From Sinorhizobium garamanticum (GTDB taxonomy: Bacteria; Pseudomonadota; Alphaproteobacteria; Rhizobiales; Rhizobiaceae): a DNA stretch of 64,000 nucleotides. The translations under genes and the position numbers were made by a program. Shown piece after piece: positions 18,320 to 28,489 of this stretch (the first letter of the stretch is position 1; the number at the start of each line of letters is the position of its first letter). The notes under the pieces were generated by a model. The model worked only from the letters and a program-made list of their open reading frames with translations. It was not told where the DNA came from and searched no databases. Location: NCBI RefSeq assembly GCF_029892065.1, contig NZ_CP120373.1, positions 1,997,501-2,061,500 of the forward strand, in the 5' to 3' direction.

Positions 18320-18904
18320 TCAGGCCGCGCCGCCTGGCACGATCTCGACAAGGAAGAGCCCGGACGCGATGTCCGCCGTCAGCGTGAGGGGAAGTGGCTG
18401 GACGAGGATCGCCGCGTCCAGCGCATGAAGCGTTGCGTTCACGCCTTCCGTCGCCAGCGTGACGCTTCCGCGGTGACAGAAGACGATGAGCTCCCGGGCG
18501 TGGGATTCGAGCGACTGCGAGCCCTCGACGTGAAGCCGCCGCACGCGGTGCTTCAGCACGCCGCGTCGCGTCATGACGTTAAGATCGATCACCGGGCCGT
18601 CCCGAAGCGTTGCCGATGTCGACGCCTCGGCGGGGAAGGAGAGGGGCGCATCCGCGACCGTCAGCAGCTTCGGCTGCCGGCCTTCGATTGCCAGCGTCAT
18701 GCCGGCGCCTTCGAGGATCGAGAGCGTGCGGTCGATGCCGGGGAAGCTGGAGAAAGAGCCATCGCTCGCGACGGTCGCCATGCTGATGCGCCAATCGAAA
18801 TCGGAAAGCGACGCGCGCTCCGGAGAGACGGCGATTTCCACGGTTTCACCGCCGCCGTTCTTCCACGGCATGTGCCTGTATTCGTTCGAGCGCAGGATCT
18901 TCAT
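18320..18904 (-). CDS. hutD: HutD-family cupin protein of histidine utilisation
   Basis: 194 aa beta-barrel (bicupin-like) protein of the HutD/Ves family: YRHMPWKNGGGETVEIAV, FDWRISMATVASDGSFSSFPGIDRTLSILEG, VIDLNVMTRRG. HutD proteins accompany hut operons and are thought to limit or tune histidine breakdown; no reaction is established. Last gene of the hut operon. Its ATG overlaps the hutH stop by four bases, so the two are translationally coupled. Confidence 0.9.
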   Translation of the reverse strand: MKILRSNEYRHMPWKNGGGETVEIAVSPERASLSDFDWRISMATVASDGSFSSFPGIDRTLSILEGAGMTLAIEGRQPKLLTVADAPLSFPAEASTSATLRDGPVIDLNVMTRRGVLKHRVRRLHVEGSQSLESHARELIVFCHRGSVTLATEGVNATLHALDAAILVQPLPLTLTADIASGLFLVEIVPGGAA

Positions 18905-20388
18905 AGCGTAGCTCCTTGCATCAGATTGCGAATTCGGTCGAAATCCTCGTTCATAGGCCGGTCGTCGGCATAGGTCGAGATCGTTTCGCGAATGCGGCCA
19001 TAGAGGGAGGCCGTCCGCTTCGCCTTGGTTCCGGATCGTGGTTGCAGATCATAGGCCTGAGCGGCCGCGAGCAGCTCGATCGCCAGGATTCGCTCGAGAT
19101 TGTCGAGGATCGAGAGCGTCTTCAAGGCAGCGGGTGTCGCGTGAGTGAGAATGTCCTCCTGAAGCGCAGAAGTGATGCCGCCGTCGAGGCTTGCCGGTGC
19201 CGCCAGCCTACGGTTCTCCGCCACAAGCGCCGCTGCCGTGTATTGCGCGATCATGTAGCCCGACGCAACGCCGCTGTCGCCGGCGAGAAAGGCGGGAAGG
19301 CCGCTGACGAGCGGGTTCACCAACCGATCGATGCGACGCTCGGAGATGGCTGCGATCTCAGCCGCGGCGATCGCGAGACCGTCCATGGCGAGGCCGAGGG
19401 CGGCACCGACCGCGTGTGCCTGGGAATGTACCTCCGGTTCTTCCGGCGTGCCGGAGACCGCCGGATTATCCGTGACGCTCGAAAGCTCGCGGTTCACAAC
19501 CTCGGCCACATGGTCGAAGGTGTCGCGAGCGGCGCCGTGCACGTGTGGCACAGCACGCAGGCTCAATGGGTCCTGTGTGCGGGTCCCGGCCGTTTCGGCA
19601 AGCATGGGGCTTTGCGCCAGCCAGTCACGCAATCTCTTGCCGACGGTCTGAAGGCCGCGTGATCGCCGCAGCGCCAACGGTCCCTCGGCGAAGGCATTTG
19701 CCTGACTGCCGAGATTTTCGTAGGTCATCGCAGCGGCCGCGTCCGCCCAGTCGAGAAGCCGCTCCATACGGGCAAGGGCCAGTGCGGCCTGGCCTGTGGC
19801 GCAGGGCGTGCCGTTCACGAGGCTGAGGCCTTCCTTCGCCTCGAGTCGCAAGGGTTCGAGACCGATGCGATCAAGGGCTTCGGCACCGCTCAATCGTTCG
19901 GTTCCGTGCATCGCTGATCCATGCCCGATCAGCACCAGGCCAATTGCCGCCGCATGGGTGAGATAGCCGACCGAGCCGCGCGACGGGATCAGTGGAATGA
20001 TGTTGGCGTTGAGAAGCGCAAGCAGGGCCTCGACGATTTCGATTCGAACACCTGAGTAGCCATGGGCAAAGTTGGCGATCTGCGCCGCCATCACCGCGCG
20101 CGCCTCCACGTTTGCGAGCGGCTCACCCACGCCGCAGGCATGACTGAGGACTATGTTGCGCGAAAGAGCCTGCTGATTCTCGCGGCTGATGACCACGTCG
20201 CAAAGGGCGCCAACGCCGGTATTAATTCCGTAACCGCGGATACCACGCTCGACCAGCGCATCGACGATCCGTCGCGCATCGACGACCCGCTTGCGGGCGG
20301 CATCCGACATGGCGAGGCGGGCTCCCCCAGCGACAGTGGCAATCTCTCGCCAGGTGAGCGGTCCATCTATGGTGATCGTCTCAGGCAT
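18901..20388 (-). CDS. hutH: Histidine ammonia-lyase homologue lacking the MIO-forming Ala-Ser-Gly
   Basis: 495 aa from ATG 20388, overlapping the hutV stop by 8 bases. It belongs to the HAL/PAL family along its whole length: GYGINTGVGALCD (about 52-64), LSHACGVGEPL, SLVNGTPCATGQ, SSVTDNPAV, ISERRIDRLVNPLVSG, QEDILTHATP. The normal GSVGASGDLAPLAH motif reads GSVGYLTHAAAIG (138-150), missing exactly the Ala-Ser-Gly that cyclises to the MIO electrophile. The catalytic Tyr of QDPYSLR is Leu (QDPLSLR, 272-278). In known enzymes both are needed for ammonia elimination. The frame is intact, so it may have another role (binding, regulation, different chemistry) while a true HutH lies elsewhere. Confidence 0.85.
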   Translation of the reverse strand: MPETITIDGPLTWREIATVAGGARLAMSDAARKRVVDARRIVDALVERGIRGYGINTGVGALCDVVISRENQQALSRNIVLSHACGVGEPLANVEARAVMAAQIANFAHGYSGVRIEIVEALLALLNANIIPLIPSRGSVGYLTHAAAIGLVLIGHGSAMHGTERLSGAEALDRIGLEPLRLEAKEGLSLVNGTPCATGQAALALARMERLLDWADAAAAMTYENLGSQANAFAEGPLALRRSRGLQTVGKRLRDWLAQSPMLAETAGTRTQDPLSLRAVPHVHGAARDTFDHVAEVVNRELSSVTDNPAVSGTPEEPEVHSQAHAVGAALGLAMDGLAIAAAEIAAISERRIDRLVNPLVSGLPAFLAGDSGVASGYMIAQYTAAALVAENRRLAAPASLDGGITSALQEDILTHATPAALKTLSILDNLERILAIELLAAAQAYDLQPRSGTKAKRTASLYGRIRETISTYADDRPMNEDFDRIRNLMQGATL

Positions 20389-21208
20389 GGGCTTCGGGTC
20401 TTCCTTGCCGACGCTGAACAAAGCGCGCGACATAGTCGTTTGCCGGATTGCCCAGAATATCATCTGGCGTCCCGACCTGCACGACCTGGCCGTCCTTTAG
20501 GATCGCGATTTCCGAGCCGATGCGCAGCGCTTCATCAAGATCGTGGGTGATGAAGACGATGGTTTTCGAGAGATTCTGCTGCAATTGCAGAAGCTGGTCC
20601 TGCATGTCGGCGCGGATCAACGGATCGAGGGCGCTGAAAGCCTCGTCCATTAGGATCACGTCGGTGTCGGCGGCAAGCGCCCGGGCAAGGCCAACGCGCT
20701 GCTTCATGCCGCCGGAAAGCTGATGTGGGAATTTCGCGTCGTAGCCCGCTAGTCCGACCGTCTCGATCCATTTCATGCCGATGCCGCGCGCATCGGCTTT
20801 CGATACGCCACGCACGCGCTGGCCGTAGACGACGTTCTGCAGCACGGTCCGATGCGGCATCAGGGCGAAACTCTGAAAGACCATGCTGACGCGGCGCATG
20901 CGAAATGCACGCAGCGCCTTGGCGTGCAGATCGAGAATGTTGCTGCCATCGAAGACAACCTCGCCGCTCGTTGGCTCGATCAACCGGTTGATATGGCGTA
21001 CCAGCGTCGACTTGCCGGAGCCGGAAAGCCCCATGATGACGAAGATCTTGCCGGCGCCGATCTTGAGGCTGACGTTGTTAAGGCCAACGCTGCAGCCGGA
21101 GCGGGCGAGGATGGCGGCCTTGTCCAGGCCGTCTTTGGCCATGGCGAGCGCCGTCTTCGAGTCGTGCCCGAAAATCTTGTAGACGTTGCGGATTTCGATG
21201 TCAGCCAT
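20381..21208 (-). CDS. hutV: Histidine ABC transporter, ATP-binding subunit HutV
   Basis: 275 aa, glycine-betaine/proline-type ABC ATPase. Walker A GLSGSGKST, Q-loop in VFQSFALMPHRTV, signature LSGGMKQRVGLARAL, Walker B VILMDEAFSALD and switch His in FITHDLDEAL. The insertion before the core (DSKTALAMAKDGLDKAAILARSG) is typical of the ProV/OpuA subgroup; the regulatory CBS tail is absent. With HutW and HutX it imports histidine, and in Sinorhizobium also related betaines. Overlaps hutW by 8 bases. Confidence 0.93.
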   Translation of the reverse strand: MADIEIRNVYKIFGHDSKTALAMAKDGLDKAAILARSGCSVGLNNVSLKIGAGKIFVIMGLSGSGKSTLVRHINRLIEPTSGEVVFDGSNILDLHAKALRAFRMRRVSMVFQSFALMPHRTVLQNVVYGQRVRGVSKADARGIGMKWIETVGLAGYDAKFPHQLSGGMKQRVGLARALAADTDVILMDEAFSALDPLIRADMQDQLLQLQQNLSKTIVFITHDLDEALRIGSEIAILKDGQVVQVGTPDDILGNPANDYVARFVQRRQGRPEAHA

Positions 21209-22058
21209 TGCGGGCGTCCTCCGTCCGGGTCTTGCCGAAGCCCTGGGTAATGCGGTCGAGCACGATCGCGAGAATGACGATGCCGATGCCAGCCTCGAGG
21301 CCCTTGCCGACGTCGAGCGTCTGGATGCCGTTCAGCACCTGTTCGCCAAGACCGCGCGCACCGATCATCGAAGCGACCACCACCATCGAAAGCGCCATCA
21401 TGATCGTCTGGTTGAGACCCGCCATGATCGTTGGCGTCGCGAGCGGCAATTCGACGCCGAAAAGAATCTGTGCCGGGCTGCCACCGAAGGCGGTCGCTGC
21501 CTCGACAACCTCGCTGTCGACCTGGCGGATGCCGAGATCGGTGAGACGGATCAGCGGCGGGACCGCATAGATGATGGTGGCGAGGATCGCCGGCACCTTG
21601 CCGAGGCCGAAAAGCATCAACGCGGGGATGAGATAAACGAAGCTCGGCATCGTCTGCATGACGTCGAGCACGGGCAGGGTGATATTGCGGACGACCCGAC
21701 TCTTGGCGACGAGAATGCCCATCGGCACGCCGATCACCACCGAGACGATCGTTGCCATCAGCATCAGCGCCAGGGTCTGCATGGTCAGGTCCCAGAGGCC
21801 GAGCACGCCAACGGCAAGCAGCAGGGCGCCAACGGCGACGGTCAGCGACCAGCGACGCGAGCTCTGCCAGGCGAGCGCCATGAAGGCGAGGATGACGAGC
21901 CACCAGGGCAGGCCGCGCAGGATCCATTCGATGAACAGCACGGCTTTCAGGATGACGCCGCTGATCGCTTTGAAGACCCAGCCATAGTTGGTGACGAGCG
22001 CTTGGATGAAGTCATTCACAGGCGCCCGGATGGAAAGATTGAGAGAGTCCGGAAACAT
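21201..22058 (-). CDS. hutW: Histidine ABC transporter, permease HutW
   Basis: 285 aa, about six or seven membrane spans (for example WWLVILAFMALAW, VAVGALLLAVGVLGLWDL). The binding-protein-dependent transport motif is around ILFGVELPLATPTIMAGLNQTIMMAL. It matches the ProW/OpuAB permease type. The 150-base gap between hutX and this gene contains a strong hairpin, while hutV follows with an overlap, so permease and ATPase are coupled to each other more tightly than to the binding protein. Confidence 0.92.
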   Translation of the reverse strand: MFPDSLNLSIRAPVNDFIQALVTNYGWVFKAISGVILKAVLFIEWILRGLPWWLVILAFMALAWQSSRRWSLTVAVGALLLAVGVLGLWDLTMQTLALMLMATIVSVVIGVPMGILVAKSRVVRNITLPVLDVMQTMPSFVYLIPALMLFGLGKVPAILATIIYAVPPLIRLTDLGIRQVDSEVVEAATAFGGSPAQILFGVELPLATPTIMAGLNQTIMMALSMVVVASMIGARGLGEQVLNGIQTLDVGKGLEAGIGIVILAIVLDRITQGFGKTRTEDARNG

Positions 22059-22208: not shown

Positions 22209-23249
22209 TTACTTCAGGCTTGCTTCGATCTTGCCGCGCGCGTCGTCGGAGACCCACTTGCCCCAGACGTCGGCCTTGGTTTTCAGGAACTCGGCAGCGG
22301 CGGCCGTGGCGTCGACCTTGTTGTCGGCCATGTAGGCGAGACTACCGTTGACGTCCTCAAGCGGGAAGGTTGCCTTTTCGAGGACAGCGACGATCTCCGG
22401 CGCCTCCGCAGCGAAGGTGCTGTTCACGCCGTAGGCAACGTCGACCGAGGGAAAGGCGCAACCTTCGTCACGCTTGCCGTTGGCGCTGCTCAGTTCCTTC
22501 CAGCAGGCCTCGTTGTATGCCGGCTCTTCAAGCTGGACGAGCTTGAACTTGCCCATGATCGCGGTCGGCGACCAATAGTAGAAGAGAATCGGCTCGCCCT
22601 GCAGATAGGCCGAGGTGATCGCCGAATCGAGCGCCGTACCGGTGCCGGGGCGGAAGTTCACATAGGTTTCGCCGAGTTTGTAAGCTTCGAGCTTGGCGGA
22701 GCTTACGCCTTCGCAGGTCCAGCCGGACGGGCAATTCAGGAAGCGGCCCTTGGACGGCTCTTCCGGATCCGCGAAGATCTCCACGATCTTCGGGTCGGAA
22801 AGCTGCGACACGCTCTTCAGGTCCGGCGCCTTCGCCTCGATGTTGCGCGAGGGATCACCGTGAACGATGTAGTCCGGCACGAACCAGCCTTCGCTGGCGC
22901 CGACGAAAGTCTTGCCGACGGCGACGACCTTCTTTTCCTCGACGGCCTTGTTCCAGACATCGGAGCGGCCAAGCCATTCTTCGGCGAAGATCTGGACATC
23001 GTTGTTGGCTGTCGCCTGTTCGAGCGTCACCGAATTGCCCGGAATGGAATCCACCTGGCAATCATAACCCTTGGCAAGGATCGCCTTCATGACTTCGGTG
23101 ATGAAGGCACCGCTTTCCCAGTCGATGCCGGCAAAAGTCACGGTCTTGCCGTCGCCGCAATAGGAGGCGCTGGCGCTGCCGGTGGAGGCCGCAACCATCA
23201 GGCCGGCGGCGGCGAGGGTGAGTTTCAGTGTGCTGATCGACATGCGCAT
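22209..23249 (-). CDS. hutX: Histidine ABC transporter, periplasmic binding protein HutX
   Basis: 346 aa. Sec signal peptide in residues 1-28 (LKLTLAAAGLMVAASTGSASA). The mature part is an OpuAC-type binding protein: KTVTFAGIDWESGAFITEVMKAIL, DVQIFAEEWLGRSDVWNKA, EGWFVPDYIV, GEPILFYYWSPTAIMGKF. Four Cys in the C-terminal half may form disulfides. It captures histidine (or related quaternary compounds) for HutW/HutV. Starts 27 bases after the hutF stop, in the same operon. Confidence 0.92.
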   Translation of the reverse strand: MRMSISTLKLTLAAAGLMVAASTGSASASYCGDGKTVTFAGIDWESGAFITEVMKAILAKGYDCQVDSIPGNSVTLEQATANNDVQIFAEEWLGRSDVWNKAVEEKKVVAVGKTFVGASEGWFVPDYIVHGDPSRNIEAKAPDLKSVSQLSDPKIVEIFADPEEPSKGRFLNCPSGWTCEGVSSAKLEAYKLGETYVNFRPGTGTALDSAITSAYLQGEPILFYYWSPTAIMGKFKLVQLEEPAYNEACWKELSSANGKRDEGCAFPSVDVAYGVNSTFAAEAPEIVAVLEKATFPLEDVNGSLAYMADNKVDATAAAAEFLKTKADVWGKWVSDDARGKIEASLK

Positions 23250-23276: not shown

Positions 23277-24653
23277 CTATTTCAGTTTCGTCAGAACCCG
23301 CCCGAAGGCGCGGTCTATGTCTTCCTCCCGATCATGGCGTCCGTTGCGGATCTTCCATTGGCCGGCGACCATGACGTCGCGGACCGTTTCGCCGCCAAGT
23401 GCAAAGAGCCAGCGGTCGAGAAGCTGGTTGCCGCTTGCCGCGGCGATATAGGGATTGGCCCCGTCGAGGACGACGAGATCGGCGTGTGCGCCGGCTTTGA
23501 TGCCGGGTGCGTCGAGACCGGCGGCTTGCGCCCCGCCGGCAAGGGCGGCCTCGAAGATCGATCGCCCGACGGACGCGCCGGGACCGGCGGCGAGCCGGTT
23601 GCGCCGGCGATCGCGCAGCCGCTGGCCGTATTCGAGAAGGCGCAGTTCTTCCGCGATGCTGGTTGCGACATGGCTATCGGTGCCGATGCCGACGCGGCCG
23701 CCCTCGGCGATGAACTCGACTGCGGGAAAGATGCCGTCGCCGAGATTGGCCTCGGTTGCGGGGCAAAGGCCGGCGACCGCCCCCGAAGCAGCCAGCCGCT
23801 TCGTTTCCTCAGCCGTCATGTGGGTCGCGTGGATGGCGCACCAGCGTGCGTCGACGGGCATCTCGTCAAGCAGCCATTCGACCGGCCGCCGGCCGCTCCA
23901 TGCCAGGCAGTCGTCGACTTCGCGCGTCTGCTCGGCCACATGAATGTGAATGGGGCCGGAGGCCGGAGCCGCATCGAGAATTGTCCGCATCTCGTCCGGC
24001 GTCGCGGCGCGCAAGGAATGAATGGCATAGCCGAGTTTTGCGCCAGCCTTCGAACAGGCGGGGCCGAGGCGATCGAGAAGAGCGAGAAAGCGATCCGGAT
24101 CATGCAGGAACGGACGCTGGCCGGGATTAGGCGCCGCACCGCCGAAATTGGTATGGGCATAAAAGACGGGCAGATGGGTCAGACCGATGCCCGTCGCCTT
24201 GGCCGCGCTCAATATCCGGAGCGACATTTCGGCCGGATCGGCATAAGGGGTGCCGTCTGCCTGGTGATGAAGATAATGGAACTCGACCACGCGGCCGAAG
24301 CCGCCCTTCAGCATCTCCATGTAAAGCTTGGCGGCGATGGCCTCGACGTCATCAGGGTCGACGAGGCCGACAGTGCGGTACATTTCCTCGCGCCAGGTCC
24401 AGAAACTGTCGTCTCCCGTGCCCGCCACTTCCGCGAGGCCGGCCATGGCGCGTTGAAACGCATGGGAGTGAAGGTTGGCAATCGCCGGAACCACCGGTCC
24501 CGAAAGTCGCTCATCGCCTTCCGCGATGGATTGGCCTGATGTGACCGATGTGATGGCGCCTCTACCGTCAAGGGTAATGGCCACGTTTTCGGCCCAGCCG
24601 CTTGGAAGGAGAGCACGTTCCGCGAAGAGCCGTTGGACGGGAAAAGTTGCCAT
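23277..24653 (-). CDS. hutF: Formimidoylglutamate deiminase HutF
   Basis: 458 aa amidohydrolase. It converts N-formimino-L-glutamate to N-formyl-L-glutamate and ammonia in the five-step histidine pathway. Metal-binding motif NLHSHAFQRAMAG, second ligands HIHVAEQTREVDDC and CAIHATHMT, and GIGTDSHVATSIAEELRLLEYGQRL are diagnostic of HutF rather than HutI. First gene of the operon hutF-X-W-V-H-D and divergent from hutC, 133 bases apart. The formylglutamate deformylase hutG and hutU/hutI are not in this window. Confidence 0.93.
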   Translation of the reverse strand: MATFPVQRLFAERALLPSGWAENVAITLDGRGAITSVTSGQSIAEGDERLSGPVVPAIANLHSHAFQRAMAGLAEVAGTGDDSFWTWREEMYRTVGLVDPDDVEAIAAKLYMEMLKGGFGRVVEFHYLHHQADGTPYADPAEMSLRILSAAKATGIGLTHLPVFYAHTNFGGAAPNPGQRPFLHDPDRFLALLDRLGPACSKAGAKLGYAIHSLRAATPDEMRTILDAAPASGPIHIHVAEQTREVDDCLAWSGRRPVEWLLDEMPVDARWCAIHATHMTAEETKRLAASGAVAGLCPATEANLGDGIFPAVEFIAEGGRVGIGTDSHVATSIAEELRLLEYGQRLRDRRRNRLAAGPGASVGRSIFEAALAGGAQAAGLDAPGIKAGAHADLVVLDGANPYIAAASGNQLLDRWLFALGGETVRDVMVAGQWKIRNGRHDREEDIDRAFGRVLTKLK

Positions 24654-24786: not shown

Positions 24787-25530
24787 ATGACGCTACGGGG
24801 GGGGACAAGCGACATACCGACTTTCGCTGAAGGACCCGTGCCGCGCTATGAGGCGGTAAAGCAATTCATTCGCAGCCGAATCGAGAGCGGCGAATGGCCC
24901 GCCAATCATCGGATACCGTCCGAAAACGATATCGTCGCGGATCTCGGCGTCAGCCGGATGACGGCGAACCGAGCGTTGCGAGAGCTTGCTAGCGAAGGCG
25001 CGATCACTCGGGTTCAGGGGGTCGGATCCTTTGTTGCGGCCCATAAGGGCAGCACGGCGCTCCTCGAGGTCCGCAACATCGCGGACGAGATCCGCGAGCG
25101 CGGCCATCGACACACCTCCCGGCTGACCGTGTTGCAGGAGGAGCCGGCGAGCCCCGAGATCGGCCACGCACTCGGGCTTCCGACGGGAGCCAGGGTGTTC
25201 CATTCGATCATGGTCCACAGCGAGAACGAGATGCCGATCCAGATCGAGGATCGGTTCGTCAACCCGGCTGTCTGCCCTGAATACATGGCGCAGGATTTCC
25301 GAGCCATGACCCCGAACGCCTATCTGACCCTGGTGGCGCCGATCACCCGCACCGAGCAGATCGTCGAGGCGGTGTCGCCCAAGCCCTGGGAATGCAAGCT
25401 TCTCGCGATCGGCCGCAACGAACCGTGCCTGATGATCCGTCGCCGGACCTGGTCGGAAACGGCGAGCGTGACCACCGCGCGGCTGCTTTATCCGGGCACG
25501 CGCTATCGCCTTGAGGGCGTCTCGCAGTGA
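24787..25530 (+). CDS. hutC: GntR-family repressor HutC
   Basis: 247 aa. N-terminal GntR winged helix: PRYEAVKQFIRSRIESGEWP, NHRIPSENDIVADLGVSRMT, ANRALRELASEGAITRVQGVG. The C-terminal UTRA domain (HSIMVHSENEMPIQIEDRFVN, APITRTEQIVEAVSPKPWEC, LMIRRRTWSETASVT) binds a small effector, urocanate in known HutC proteins. Here it should repress the divergent hut operon and its own transcript, which continues after 31 bases into the kinase-aminotransferase fusion. Confidence 0.92.
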   Translation: MTLRGGTSDIPTFAEGPVPRYEAVKQFIRSRIESGEWPANHRIPSENDIVADLGVSRMTANRALRELASEGAITRVQGVGSFVAAHKGSTALLEVRNIADEIRERGHRHTSRLTVLQEEPASPEIGHALGLPTGARVFHSIMVHSENEMPIQIEDRFVNPAVCPEYMAQDFRAMTPNAYLTLVAPITRTEQIVEAVSPKPWECKLLAIGRNEPCLMIRRRTWSETASVTTARLLYPGTRYRLEGVSQ

Positions 25531-25561
25531 GGCGGTCCCGCGAATAAACGGGAATGGAAGC

Positions 25562-28489
25562 ATGGACGGAGAAACGCTCAAGCTCCGCACGCAACTCGCA
25601 AGACCGGACGTCTCCGCCGAGGAGGCGAAACGCGTTCTATCGGAACAATACAACCTTTCCGGCGCGCTGACCGAGCTCGGCAGCCAGCAGGATCGAAACT
25701 ACCGCGTGGATACGGAGGATGGCAGTTTCGTCCTGAAAATCTGCCGGATGGAATATGCACGGGTCGAACTTGAGGCGCAGAATGCAGCCCTGCATCATCT
25801 TGGCGCCACCTCGGGCGCTCCGAAGGTGCCGGCCGTCATCTCGGCGCTGAATGGCGAGGAGATTGTCGTCGCTGCCGTCCGGGACGTGCCCTATCAGTTC
25901 CGGCTGCTCACCTATCTTGACGGCACGCCTTTGACCCGCCGCAAGCATCTTCCGGCGCAAACGGTGGCGGAACTTGGCGACCTCGCCGGCCGGCTGGCTG
26001 CGGCACTCAAGGGGCTCGATCATCCCGGGCTCGAACGCGAACTGCAATGGGACCTCCGACGGGCCGGACCGGTCGCGCTGCAACTGCTGCAGACCATGAC
26101 CGACGTGGATTTGCGCAAGCGCGTCGCCGAGGCAATGGTCGCCGCGATGCGGCGCGTGCAGCCGCTGATGCCGGAGTTGCGGGTGCAGGCGATCCATCAG
26201 GACGTCACGGACGACAACGTCGTGAGCAGGGTGGAGGCAGGTGGCAGGCTTGTGCCCGAGGGCGTGATCGACTTCGGTGACGTCCTCAAGGGGTGGCTCG
26301 TCGCCGAACTGGCGGTCACCTGTGCGTCGCTGCTTCACCATGCCGATGGCGACCCGTTCTTCATCCTGCCGGCGGTCCAGGCCTTCCACGCGGCATCCCC
26401 GCTGACGGATGTCGAGCTGAAGGCGCTCTGGCCACTCATCGTGGCACGAGCGGGGATTCTGGTCGCAAGTACGGAACAGCAGTTGGAGATCGATCCCGAC
26501 AACGCCTATGTGCGTGGAAACGCCGCCCATGAGCGTGAAATCCTCGATGTCGCGCTGTCGGTGCCTTTCGGCCTGATGGAGCGGGCAATCCACCAGGCCG
26601 TAGGGAAGGGGGCGGCATTGACCGTGCCCTTGACGGCCGGCCGGCTGCTGCCGGACATCGAACCCTCCCGCGTCGGTATCGTCGATCTTTCGCTCCTTGG
26701 GCCTCATCTTCCGGCCGACCGCTGGCATTATGAGGATACCGAAGCGCTGCTCTTGCAGTCGGCGGCGCGGGCGGCCGGCGCCTCCGCTACGCGATACGGC
26801 GAATTCCGCCTGACCGAAACGCGGCTTCTCCAAGCAAGGTCGCCTGCGACCTTCGCTCTGCACGTCGATCTCTGTCTGCATGGACAAACTGTCGTCCATG
26901 CGCCTTTCGCGGGCAATCTCGGGCGGCGCGGCGAAAAACTGGTTCTATCGGCCGATGGGCTGCATCTCCATCTCAATGGCGTCGAACCGGCCGATGCCGC
27001 CGAAGGCGCGATCGAAGCCGGAGCGCCGATCGGCGTCGTTCCCGGCGATCCGCCAGCGCTGGGCTTCATCCGCGTCCAGCTCTGCAGGGAAGCGGACATC
27101 GACCCGCCGCCCTTCGCCACAGCGAGCCAGGCAGAAGCCTGGCGGGCACTCTGCCCGTCGCCCGCCCAAATGCTCGGTTTCGACTGTGATGCGCCCTTGC
27201 CGGCAGCGGGCGAACTGCTTCAGCGCCGGCAACGCCATTTCGCACGGGCCCAGAAGAACTATTATCGCCAGCCGCCGCAGATCGAGCGGGGTTGGAAGGA
27301 ACATCTCTTTGATGTCGAGGGCCGTGCCTATCTCGACATGGTCAACAATGTCACGATCGTCGGCCACGGCCATCCGCGCCTTTCGGCGGCGGTTGGCCGG
27401 CAATGGTCGCTGCTCAACACCAATTCGCGCTTCCACTATGCATCGGTGGCGGAATTTTCGGAGCGGCTCGCCGGGTTGGCGCCCGAGGGGCTCGACACGG
27501 TTTTTCTCGTCAACAGCGGCTCGGAGGCAAACGACCTTGCGATCCGACTCGCCTGGGCACATTCCGGCGCGCGTCACATGCTCTCGCTGCTCGAAGCCTA
27601 TCACGGCTGGACGATCGCGAGCGATGCGGTCTCGACGTCGATCGCCGACAATCCGCAGGCGCTGACGACGCGGCCCGACTGGGTGCATCCGGTCGTTTCC
27701 CCGAACACCTATCGCGGACCGTTTCGCGGAGAAGGCTCGACCAGCAACTATGTTCGCGACGTTACCGAGCAACTGGAGGAACTCGACGAACGTCGGGTGG
27801 GCCTTGCGGGCTTCATTTGCGAAGCGGTCTATGGCAACGCCGGCGGCATCCCGCTGCCGCCCGGATATCTCGAGGCCGTCTATGCCATGGTGAGGGCAAG
27901 AGGCGGCGTCTGCATCGCCGATGAGGTACAGGTGGGCTACGGCCGCCTCGGCCACCATTTCTGGGGGTTCGAAGAGCAGGGCGTCGTTCCGGACCTCATC
28001 ACGGTCGCCAAGGGCATGGGCAACGGCCATCCGCTCGGCGCCGTCATCACGCGGCGCGAGATCGCGGAGGCGCTGGAGAAGGAAGGCTACTTCTTCTCGT
28101 CGGCCGGTGGCAGTCCGGTAAGCTCCGTCGTGGGCCTGACCGTGCTCGACATTCTTCACGACGAGGCCTTGCAGGAGAATGCCCGCACGGTCGGCGACCA
28201 TCTCAAGGCGCGGCTGCAGGCGCTCGGCGACCGCTTTCCGATCGTCGGCGCGGTCCACGGCATGGGGCTTTATCTCGGCGTCGAGTTCGTCCGTGACCGT
28301 GAAACGCTGGAGCCTGCGACGGAGGAGACGGCGGCGATCTGCAACCGCCTCCTTGAACTCGGCGTCATCATGCAGCCGACCGGCGATCACCTGAATGTCT
28401 TGAAGATCAAGCCGCCGCTCTGCCTCAGCCACGAGAGCGCCGACTTCTTTGCCGCGATGCTGGAGCGGGTGCTGGAAGAGGGCTGGTGA
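25562..28489 (+). CDS. Three-part fusion: APH-type kinase, middle beta domain, class III aminotransferase/phospho-lyase
   Basis: 975 aa from ATG 25562. Residues about 40-330 are an aminoglycoside/choline-kinase-like domain with HQDVTDDN (His212, Asp214, Asn219) and VIDFGD. Residues about 350-545 form a beta-rich middle part with LHVDLCLHGQTVVHAPFAGN, recalling an M23-peptidase fold without its full zinc ligands. Residues about 570-970 are a PLP enzyme with NSGSEANDLA, FICEAVYGNAGGI, ADEVQVGYGRLG and the Schiff-base Lys817 in VAKGMGNGHP. Human hydroxylysine kinase and phosphohydroxylysine phospho-lyase correspond to the first and last parts, so phosphorylation then elimination of a hydroxylated amine is a reasonable inference. 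Probably co-transcribed with hutC. Confidence 0.85.
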   Translation: MDGETLKLRTQLARPDVSAEEAKRVLSEQYNLSGALTELGSQQDRNYRVDTEDGSFVLKICRMEYARVELEAQNAALHHLGATSGAPKVPAVISALNGEEIVVAAVRDVPYQFRLLTYLDGTPLTRRKHLPAQTVAELGDLAGRLAAALKGLDHPGLERELQWDLRRAGPVALQLLQTMTDVDLRKRVAEAMVAAMRRVQPLMPELRVQAIHQDVTDDNVVSRVEAGGRLVPEGVIDFGDVLKGWLVAELAVTCASLLHHADGDPFFILPAVQAFHAASPLTDVELKALWPLIVARAGILVASTEQQLEIDPDNAYVRGNAAHEREILDVALSVPFGLMERAIHQAVGKGAALTVPLTAGRLLPDIEPSRVGIVDLSLLGPHLPADRWHYEDTEALLLQSAARAAGASATRYGEFRLTETRLLQARSPATFALHVDLCLHGQTVVHAPFAGNLGRRGEKLVLSADGLHLHLNGVEPADAAEGAIEAGAPIGVVPGDPPALGFIRVQLCREADIDPPPFATASQAEAWRALCPSPAQMLGFDCDAPLPAAGELLQRRQRHFARAQKNYYRQPPQIERGWKEHLFDVEGRAYLDMVNNVTIVGHGHPRLSAAVGRQWSLLNTNSRFHYASVAEFSERLAGLAPEGLDTVFLVNSGSEANDLAIRLAWAHSGARHMLSLLEAYHGWTIASDAVSTSIADNPQALTTRPDWVHPVVSPNTYRGPFRGEGSTSNYVRDVTEQLEELDERRVGLAGFICEAVYGNAGGIPLPPGYLEAVYAMVRARGGVCIADEVQVGYGRLGHHFWGFEEQGVVPDLITVAKGMGNGHPLGAVITRREIAEALEKEGYFFSSAGGSPVSSVVGLTVLDILHDEALQENARTVGDHLKARLQALGDRFPIVGAVHGMGLYLGVEFVRDRETLEPATEETAAICNRLLELGVIMQPTGDHLNVLKIKPPLCLSHESADFFAAMLERVLEEGW

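Follow-up and report, generated by a model that had tools for sequence, protein, structure and literature searches.

Histidine ammonia-lyase (HAL, HutH) needs the electrophile 4-methylideneimidazole-5-one (MIO), formed from Ala-Ser-Gly (ASG), to expel ammonia. In the Geobacillus enzyme, Tyr52, His82, Asn194 and Glu411 are required, Gln274 and Arg280 assist in positioning the substrate, histidine is recognised through Ser-His 81-82, Tyr277 may support the glutamate and Phe325 may have a cation-stabilising role (PMC11432326). MIO-free lyases of the same fold are already known: ergothionase lacks MIO and splits ergothioneine to trimethylamine and thiourocanic acid (PMC13405746). The present analysis concerns HutH2, a MIO-less histidase homologue of 495 amino acids encoded at 18901..20388 (-) of a 64,000-nucleotide stretch of the Sinorhizobium garamanticum genome (contig NZ_CP120373.1, positions 1,997,501 to 2,061,500; hereafter the window). 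The name HutH2 is used here for the whole homologue family. The conserved loss of the MIO precursor, the predicted fold, the kept and gained residues and the gene neighbourhood were computed, and they suggest that HutH2 is probably an active MIO-free lyase converting hercynine (histidine betaine) to urocanate and trimethylamine.

Active site of HutH2

The frame of the window gene is intact, as the preliminary description had stated, and spans 495 codons. Its product reaches 508.6 bits with PF00221, the aromatic amino acid lyase fold family, and belongs there by both model and fold. Judged by its AlphaFold2 monomer model (predicted local distance difference test 91.6, predicted template modelling score 0.92), HutH2 is a full-length, confidently modelled histidase homologue. 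It nevertheless remains under the cut-offs of both NCBIfam histidine ammonia-lyase models (482.8 vs 524 and 470.4 vs 539 bits). In the alignment to HAL of Pseudomonas putida (1b8f), a single tyrosine stands for ASGD, so that GSVGYLTH (residues 138-145; 19954..19977 (-)) is the counterpart of GSVG-ASGD-LAP. The precise absence of the MIO triplet, reported in the preliminary description, is therefore real but can be refined: either ASG or SGD can be named as the missing triplet, depending on how the alignment is drawn, and Asp145 is also lost or displaced. The tyrosine of QDPYSLR, likewise described as replaced, is leucine in QDPLSLR (residues 272-278; 19555..19575 (-)), where Leu275 occupies the HAL Tyr280 position and Gln272 and Arg278 are kept.

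Both changes are common to all 200 aligned homologues, and among the 201 sequences of the full set (the window protein, 80 loci and 120 proteins, the latter two sets overlapping) ASGD occurs in none. Tyr142 (19963-19965 (-)), Leu275 and Tyr383 were each found at 80/80 loci and in 120/120 proteins, and the same complete retention was observed for Tyr53, His83, Asn195, Gln277, Arg283 and Glu414 (HAL numbering). The ratio of non-synonymous to synonymous substitution rates of hutH2, calculated against five relatives, is 0.073-0.102, which agrees with the earlier proposal that the changes are under selection. This ratio, along with the presence of both changes in all 200 homologues, excludes a sequencing error or a decaying pseudogene.

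Of the roles described for Geobacillus HAL, HutH2 retains all except the counterparts of Tyr277 and Phe325. The SH motif, linked in HALs to the recognition of histidine (PMC11432326), is preserved as Ser82-His83 (20140..20145 (-)). The gained residues are Tyr142 and His145, both signatures of the family, together with His325, Tyr383 and His416. His325-Ala326 (19411..19416 (-)) replaces HAL Asn328-Phe329, Tyr383 (19240..19242 (-)) takes the position of HAL Val386, which is a conserved lysine in ergothionases, and the segment at 19141..19158 (-) runs from the kept Glu411 (HAL Glu414) to His416 (HAL Met419). A residue comparison of 19 HutH2, 17 HutH and 14 ergothionase-like proteins with the ergothionase of Treponema denticola gave Phe329 to Ala, Val386 to Tyr and Met419 to His in 19/19 HutH2 rows each, and Asn328 to His in 18/19. 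Leu280 is common to both MIO-free groups. In contrast, a lysine occupies each of HAL positions 63 and 386 in 14/14 ergothionase-like proteins and in the T. denticola enzyme but in 0/19 HutH2 proteins, which carry Cys, Ser or Ala at the former position and Tyr at the latter. Lysines are reportedly catalytic in ergothionase, in work attributed to Maurer et al. from 2019.

HutH2 resembles T. denticola ergothionase (6s7j/6s7q) in the HAL fold, in the missing ASG and MIO, in Leu for Tyr280 and in the retained Tyr53, His83, Arg283 and Glu414, but the structural alignment gives 27% identity, and ASGD is replaced by one tyrosine in HutH2 and by two residues plus Asp in ergothionase. With HutH (1b8f and the canonical enzyme of the same genome) it has the SH motif, Asn195, Gln277, Arg283 and Glu414 in common; the differences are the absent MIO precursor, Leu280, Ala329, the gained tyrosines and histidines and the scores below the HutH cut-offs. 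Identity is 34-37% to nine HutH rows compared with 24-27% to five ergothionase-like rows. In the trees, HutH2 (98/94) and the ergothionase rows (100/99) form separate groups, and the HutH2, ergothionase and HutH groups each lie on one side of a branch; long branches were flagged, and a second tree was built without ASG_L123 and without the MIO and QDP columns. HutH2 proteins that carry a name in their source are mostly labelled histidine ammonia-lyase or HAL/PAL/TAL family, which the active site contradicts.

Gene neighbourhood and companion lyases

The gene order in the window is hutF-hutX-hutW-hutV-hutH2-hutD, with hutC divergent. Eight bases are shared by hutV and hutH2, from the hutH2 ATG at 20388 to the hutV stop, and four by hutH2 and hutD, from the hutD ATG to the hutH2 stop; hence the translational coupling noticed earlier is real. 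HutX (22209..23249 (-); PF04069, 209 bits) is an OpuAC-type betaine-binding periplasmic protein whose closest relatives in the PDB are glycine betaine/proline-binding proteins. HutW (21201..22058 (-)) is a ProW-type permease (PF00528; the nearest NCBIfam models, ChoW and ProW, are both under cut-off), and HutV (20381..21208 (-)) is the ProV-type ATPase of a betaine/proline/choline ATP-binding cassette transporter (TIGR01186, 347.8 bits, cut-off 326.6). The remaining genes encode HutF, a formimidoylglutamate deiminase (23277..24653 (-); TIGR02022, 720 bits, cut-off 413), HutD (18320..18904 (-); PF05962, 191 bits) and HutC, a GntR-family repressor of histidine utilisation (24787..25530 (+); TIGR02018, 299.7 bits, cut-off 220). 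Adjoining hutC, at 25511-28489, a fusion protein of 992 amino acids combines an APH-type phosphotransferase with a class III aminotransferase (NF004800, 1592.8 bits; PF01636, PF00202). At the Sinorhizobium meliloti locus (L014), the genes are arranged as in the window, and the protein there is 84% identical to HutH2. A hutXWV-hutH2 operon of that species, with HutH2 as a putative histidase, is said to have been described by Boncompagni et al. in 2000.

To compare surroundings, 80 HutH2 loci (L numbers) and 19 canonical hutH stretches were surveyed within 6 kilobases (kb) by phmmer to single seeds. Genomes (G numbers) G004, G008, G011 and G018, with HutH2 near canonical HutH, were left out of the controls, G015 gave two stretches, and five of the 19 were shorter than 15 kb. 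An OpuAC protein was found at 59/80 HutH2 loci versus 0/19 canonical stretches. Since the OpuAC seeds came from HutH2 loci, the search was repeated with PF04069 over 18 whole genomes. OpuAC then lay within 6 kb of HutH2 in 10/16 HutH2-bearing genomes and within the same distance of 1/19 canonical hutH genes (G009, 58.7 bits, a weak match); the contrast holds after this check, although less absolutely. The urocanate pathway was also present: HutU, HutI, HutG, HutF and HutC occurred within 6 kb of 26, 26, 24, 48 and 63 of the 80 HutH2 genes, compared with 13, 12, 12, 9 and 15 of the 19 canonical ones, and at least one of hutU, hutI, hutG and hutF was found at 51/80 HutH2 loci. The features proposed as marks of a hercynine lyase, a betaine importer and the urocanate pathway beside the gene, are therefore both found. 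Unlike the thiourocanate hydratase that accompanies ergothionase, the urocanases beside HutH2 in L052, L074 and L076 are HutU (913-979 bits) and stay under the thiourocanate hydratase cut-offs. At L081, HutH2 is preceded by another kind of betaine transporter, which has two permeases, and by a HutC-like regulator. In G257 (C1:1071260-1073734), about 0.4 kb separates an OpuAC gene from a PF00221 gene of ergothionase strength (278 bits, MIO motif unread), a possible second link of betaine uptake to MIO-free lyases.

Canonical HutH was located within the fetched stretch at 22/80 HutH2 loci and somewhere in the genome in 63/66 HutH2 genomes checked (18/20 and 45/46; 14 of the 80 loci lay outside this check). 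Therefore, HutH2 adds something to these genomes and is not a replacement for HutH. The three genomes in which canonical HutH was not found are G002, an isolate draft, and the metagenome-assembled genomes G007 and G629, in the latter of which the contig ends about 1.4 kb past the HutH2 gene. The case for HutH2 occurring without HutH rests on G002, and no second case examined closely emerged among 198 genomes of its family. In G002, hutF, hutI, hutG and hutU surround HutH2 (L074) and the other PF00221 gene (L127) is ergothionase-like, and this arrangement, with canonical HutH not found, suggests urocanate as the HutH2 product. At a threshold of 1e-165, 9/385 class-level genomes pass the HutH2 profile; five, including that of the window, have the window-type motif, and four of one genus have the sister motif described below.

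The genome of the window contains three PF00221 genes. The second, ASG-containing HutH whose existence had been raised as a question was found on another contig (L001); it is canonical (GSVGASGDLAP, QDPYCIR; 746.6 bits to the HutH model) and belongs to a minus-strand gene run with HutU (NCBIfam) and frames read as hutI and hutG, which served as seeds for those genes in the neighbourhood survey. The window gene is hence not the sole histidase of its host. The third gene (L003) has the motifs GSMGCADIGLMGQ and HDPLSLR and matches ergothionase best in the PDB (4.9e-56). The genes after it exceed the cut-offs of the NCBIfam models of ErtD, ErtE, thiohydantoin desulfurase and thiourocanate hydratase, and together they form a complete ergothioneine-degradation cluster (L094, G000:C1:2626000-2645500). 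On the basis of the PDB match, the residue comparison and this cluster, L003 is preferred as the ergothionase of the genome. With both a canonical HutH and a separate ergothionase-like gene present, the window gene is neither of the two. No match to PF10017 (EgtD-type) was found in this genome, and therefore hercynine is probably not made at home through an EgtD-type route.

Hercynine as candidate substrate and the alternatives

The activity of HutH2, its substrate and product, its regulation and the role of each residue are deduced from the features above. Hercynine is the natural substrate to which the imidazole-type site, the importer for betaines and the indicated product, urocanate, together point. 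The betaine transporter HutXWV would import hercynine (N-alpha-trimethylhistidine), from which HutH2 would remove trimethylamine by beta-elimination to yield urocanate. The urocanate would relieve HutC repression and be converted to glutamate by HutU, HutI, HutF and HutG. Within the active site, to which several subunits contribute in HAL, the space freed by the loss of MIO and by the Tyr280 to Leu and Phe329 to Ala changes may house the trimethylammonium group against Tyr142 and Tyr383, Ser82-His83 and Glu414 may hold the imidazole, Arg283, Asn195 and Gln277 may hold the carboxylate, and the beta-proton could be taken by Tyr53 or Glu414. As a good leaving group in its own right, trimethylamine may make MIO dispensable here; on chemical grounds, a betaine should be able to expel it without an electrophile acting on the amine.

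Several observations weigh against this assignment. The 80 loci are mostly from Rhizobiaceae and are not independent. An OpuAC protein is missing within 6 kb at 21/80 loci in the seed search and in 6/16 HutH2 genomes in the Pfam search (G005, G006, G009, G019, G020 and G257), and 8/80 loci have neither OpuAC nor any of hutU, hutI, hutG and hutF (L044, L048, L063, L065, L071, L075, L077 and L079). A HutH2 relative in G257 (L162) is accompanied by an amino-acid-type SBP_bac_3 transporter, and the sister-group gene L160 adjoins a LysR regulator and an HlyD/MacB/OEP efflux system with no hut genes; the wider MIO-free clade may therefore have several substrates. TIGR03105, presumably a glutamine-synthetase-III, GMAS-like family and the sole family tried for trimethylamine use, had no match over cut-off in the window's genome. 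Moreover, S. meliloti HutXWV is said also to move histidine, proline and proline betaine, and a hutH2 mutant of that species reportedly grew about 30% less on histidine, a defect that needs explaining, for example by polarity on hutD.

The reported growth defect speaks for HutH2 as a MIO-independent histidine ammonia-lyase, or as an enzyme acting on partly N-methylated histidine, supplying urocanate beside HutH. The retained SH motif and carboxylate-binding residues and the hut genes of G002 are also consistent with such an activity, but it is unlikely: without the electrophile, ammonia elimination should be severely impaired, the transporter is of the betaine type, and histidine is already served, because nearly all HutH2 genomes checked hold canonical HutH. 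That HutH2 is itself an ergothionase, acting on ergothioneine or its sulfonate to give thiourocanate and trimethylamine, is quite improbable. Ergothioneine is likewise a betaine, and the fold, the missing MIO and Leu280 are common to both proteins (phmmer E 1.4e-49 to 6s7j); however, HutH2 lacks both conserved lysines, the two groups are separate in the trees, the genome has a complete ergothioneine cluster elsewhere, and all three urocanases tested on the HutH2 side are HutU.

The preliminary description had favoured selection for a non-lyase function and offered histidine or urocanate sensing, a subunit modifying HutH, or new chemistry; of these, the last is favoured here. A non-catalytic sensor or HutH-modifying partner would account for the missing electrophile, for the coupling to transporter and hutD genes and for the frequent nearness of urocanate-pathway genes and, at some loci, of HutH itself, yet it is very unlikely, since the catalytic-set residues are invariant (200/200) and the absence of MIO with Leu280 also occurs in ergothionase, a catalytic precedent. 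An obligate role as a HutH subunit is further disfavoured by the few stretches containing HutH and by G002, although most HutH2 genomes do hold HutH. There is also little probability that HutH2 removes trimethylamine from another betaine or performs a different reaction on an imidazole compound. The betaine transporter family would permit it, and the differing neighbourhoods of relatives suggest that the scaffold may serve other roles, but the kept SH motif and Glu414 and the HutC, HutF, HutU, HutI and HutG neighbours suggest that the substrate is an imidazole compound and the product urocanate.

Related MIO-free proteins and significance

Further MIO-free proteins were observed around the HutH2 and ergothionase groups. 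The sister group of HutH2 (L160 and L161, from G254 and G382) reads GSVGYIVH or GSVGYITH with QDALSIR, a motif type also present in G480 and G557, and possibly has a different substrate. A deep relative from Acidisoma silvae (L119/L131; GSVGYLIATAHIG, 40% identical) retains the tyrosine after GSVG and Tyr386 and has Ser at 195. A third MIO-free type, GSIGAGDLGLAAH with QDALSFR, was found in two Acidisoma genomes (L132, L134 and L135; G005 and G006); these proteins are about 34% identical to T. denticola ergothionase and have Lys386, no Lys63 and Arg for His83, and the L135 gene of G006 has an OpuAC gene at a distance of about 3.7 kb. In Rhizobium rhizogenes (L126, G015:C7), an ergothionase homologue (GSVGEADITLASHIG, 35% to T. 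denticola) is accompanied by a thiourocanate hydratase, and HutH2 is located some 26 kb away on the same contig.

We know of no enzyme that degrades histidine betaine, a compound of soils. A search of open-licence literature by titles and abstract openings gave neither a hercynine lyase, though a subscription paper could exist, nor a report of a rhizobial HutH2 without MIO. We lean slightly towards regarding HutH2 as the first hercynine-degrading enzyme, in which MIO would have been traded for a tyrosine pocket, and as the first step of a 'betaine branch' through which rhizobia and other Alphaproteobacteria would feed the Hut pathway. On this reading, HutH2 would stand next to ergothionase as a second MIO-free lyase with its own specialisation. 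In a study of soil crust, the isolates examined did not use the histidine betaine of a crust cyanobacterium, yet microbes depleted it in the crust (PMC4595634). If the proposed function is true, both an enzyme and a transporter could be assigned to histidine betaine and the HutH2 family could fill this gap; HutH2 would also be a possible origin of rhizosphere trimethylamine and would show how a cofactor-dependent lyase sheds its cofactor once the leaving group changes.
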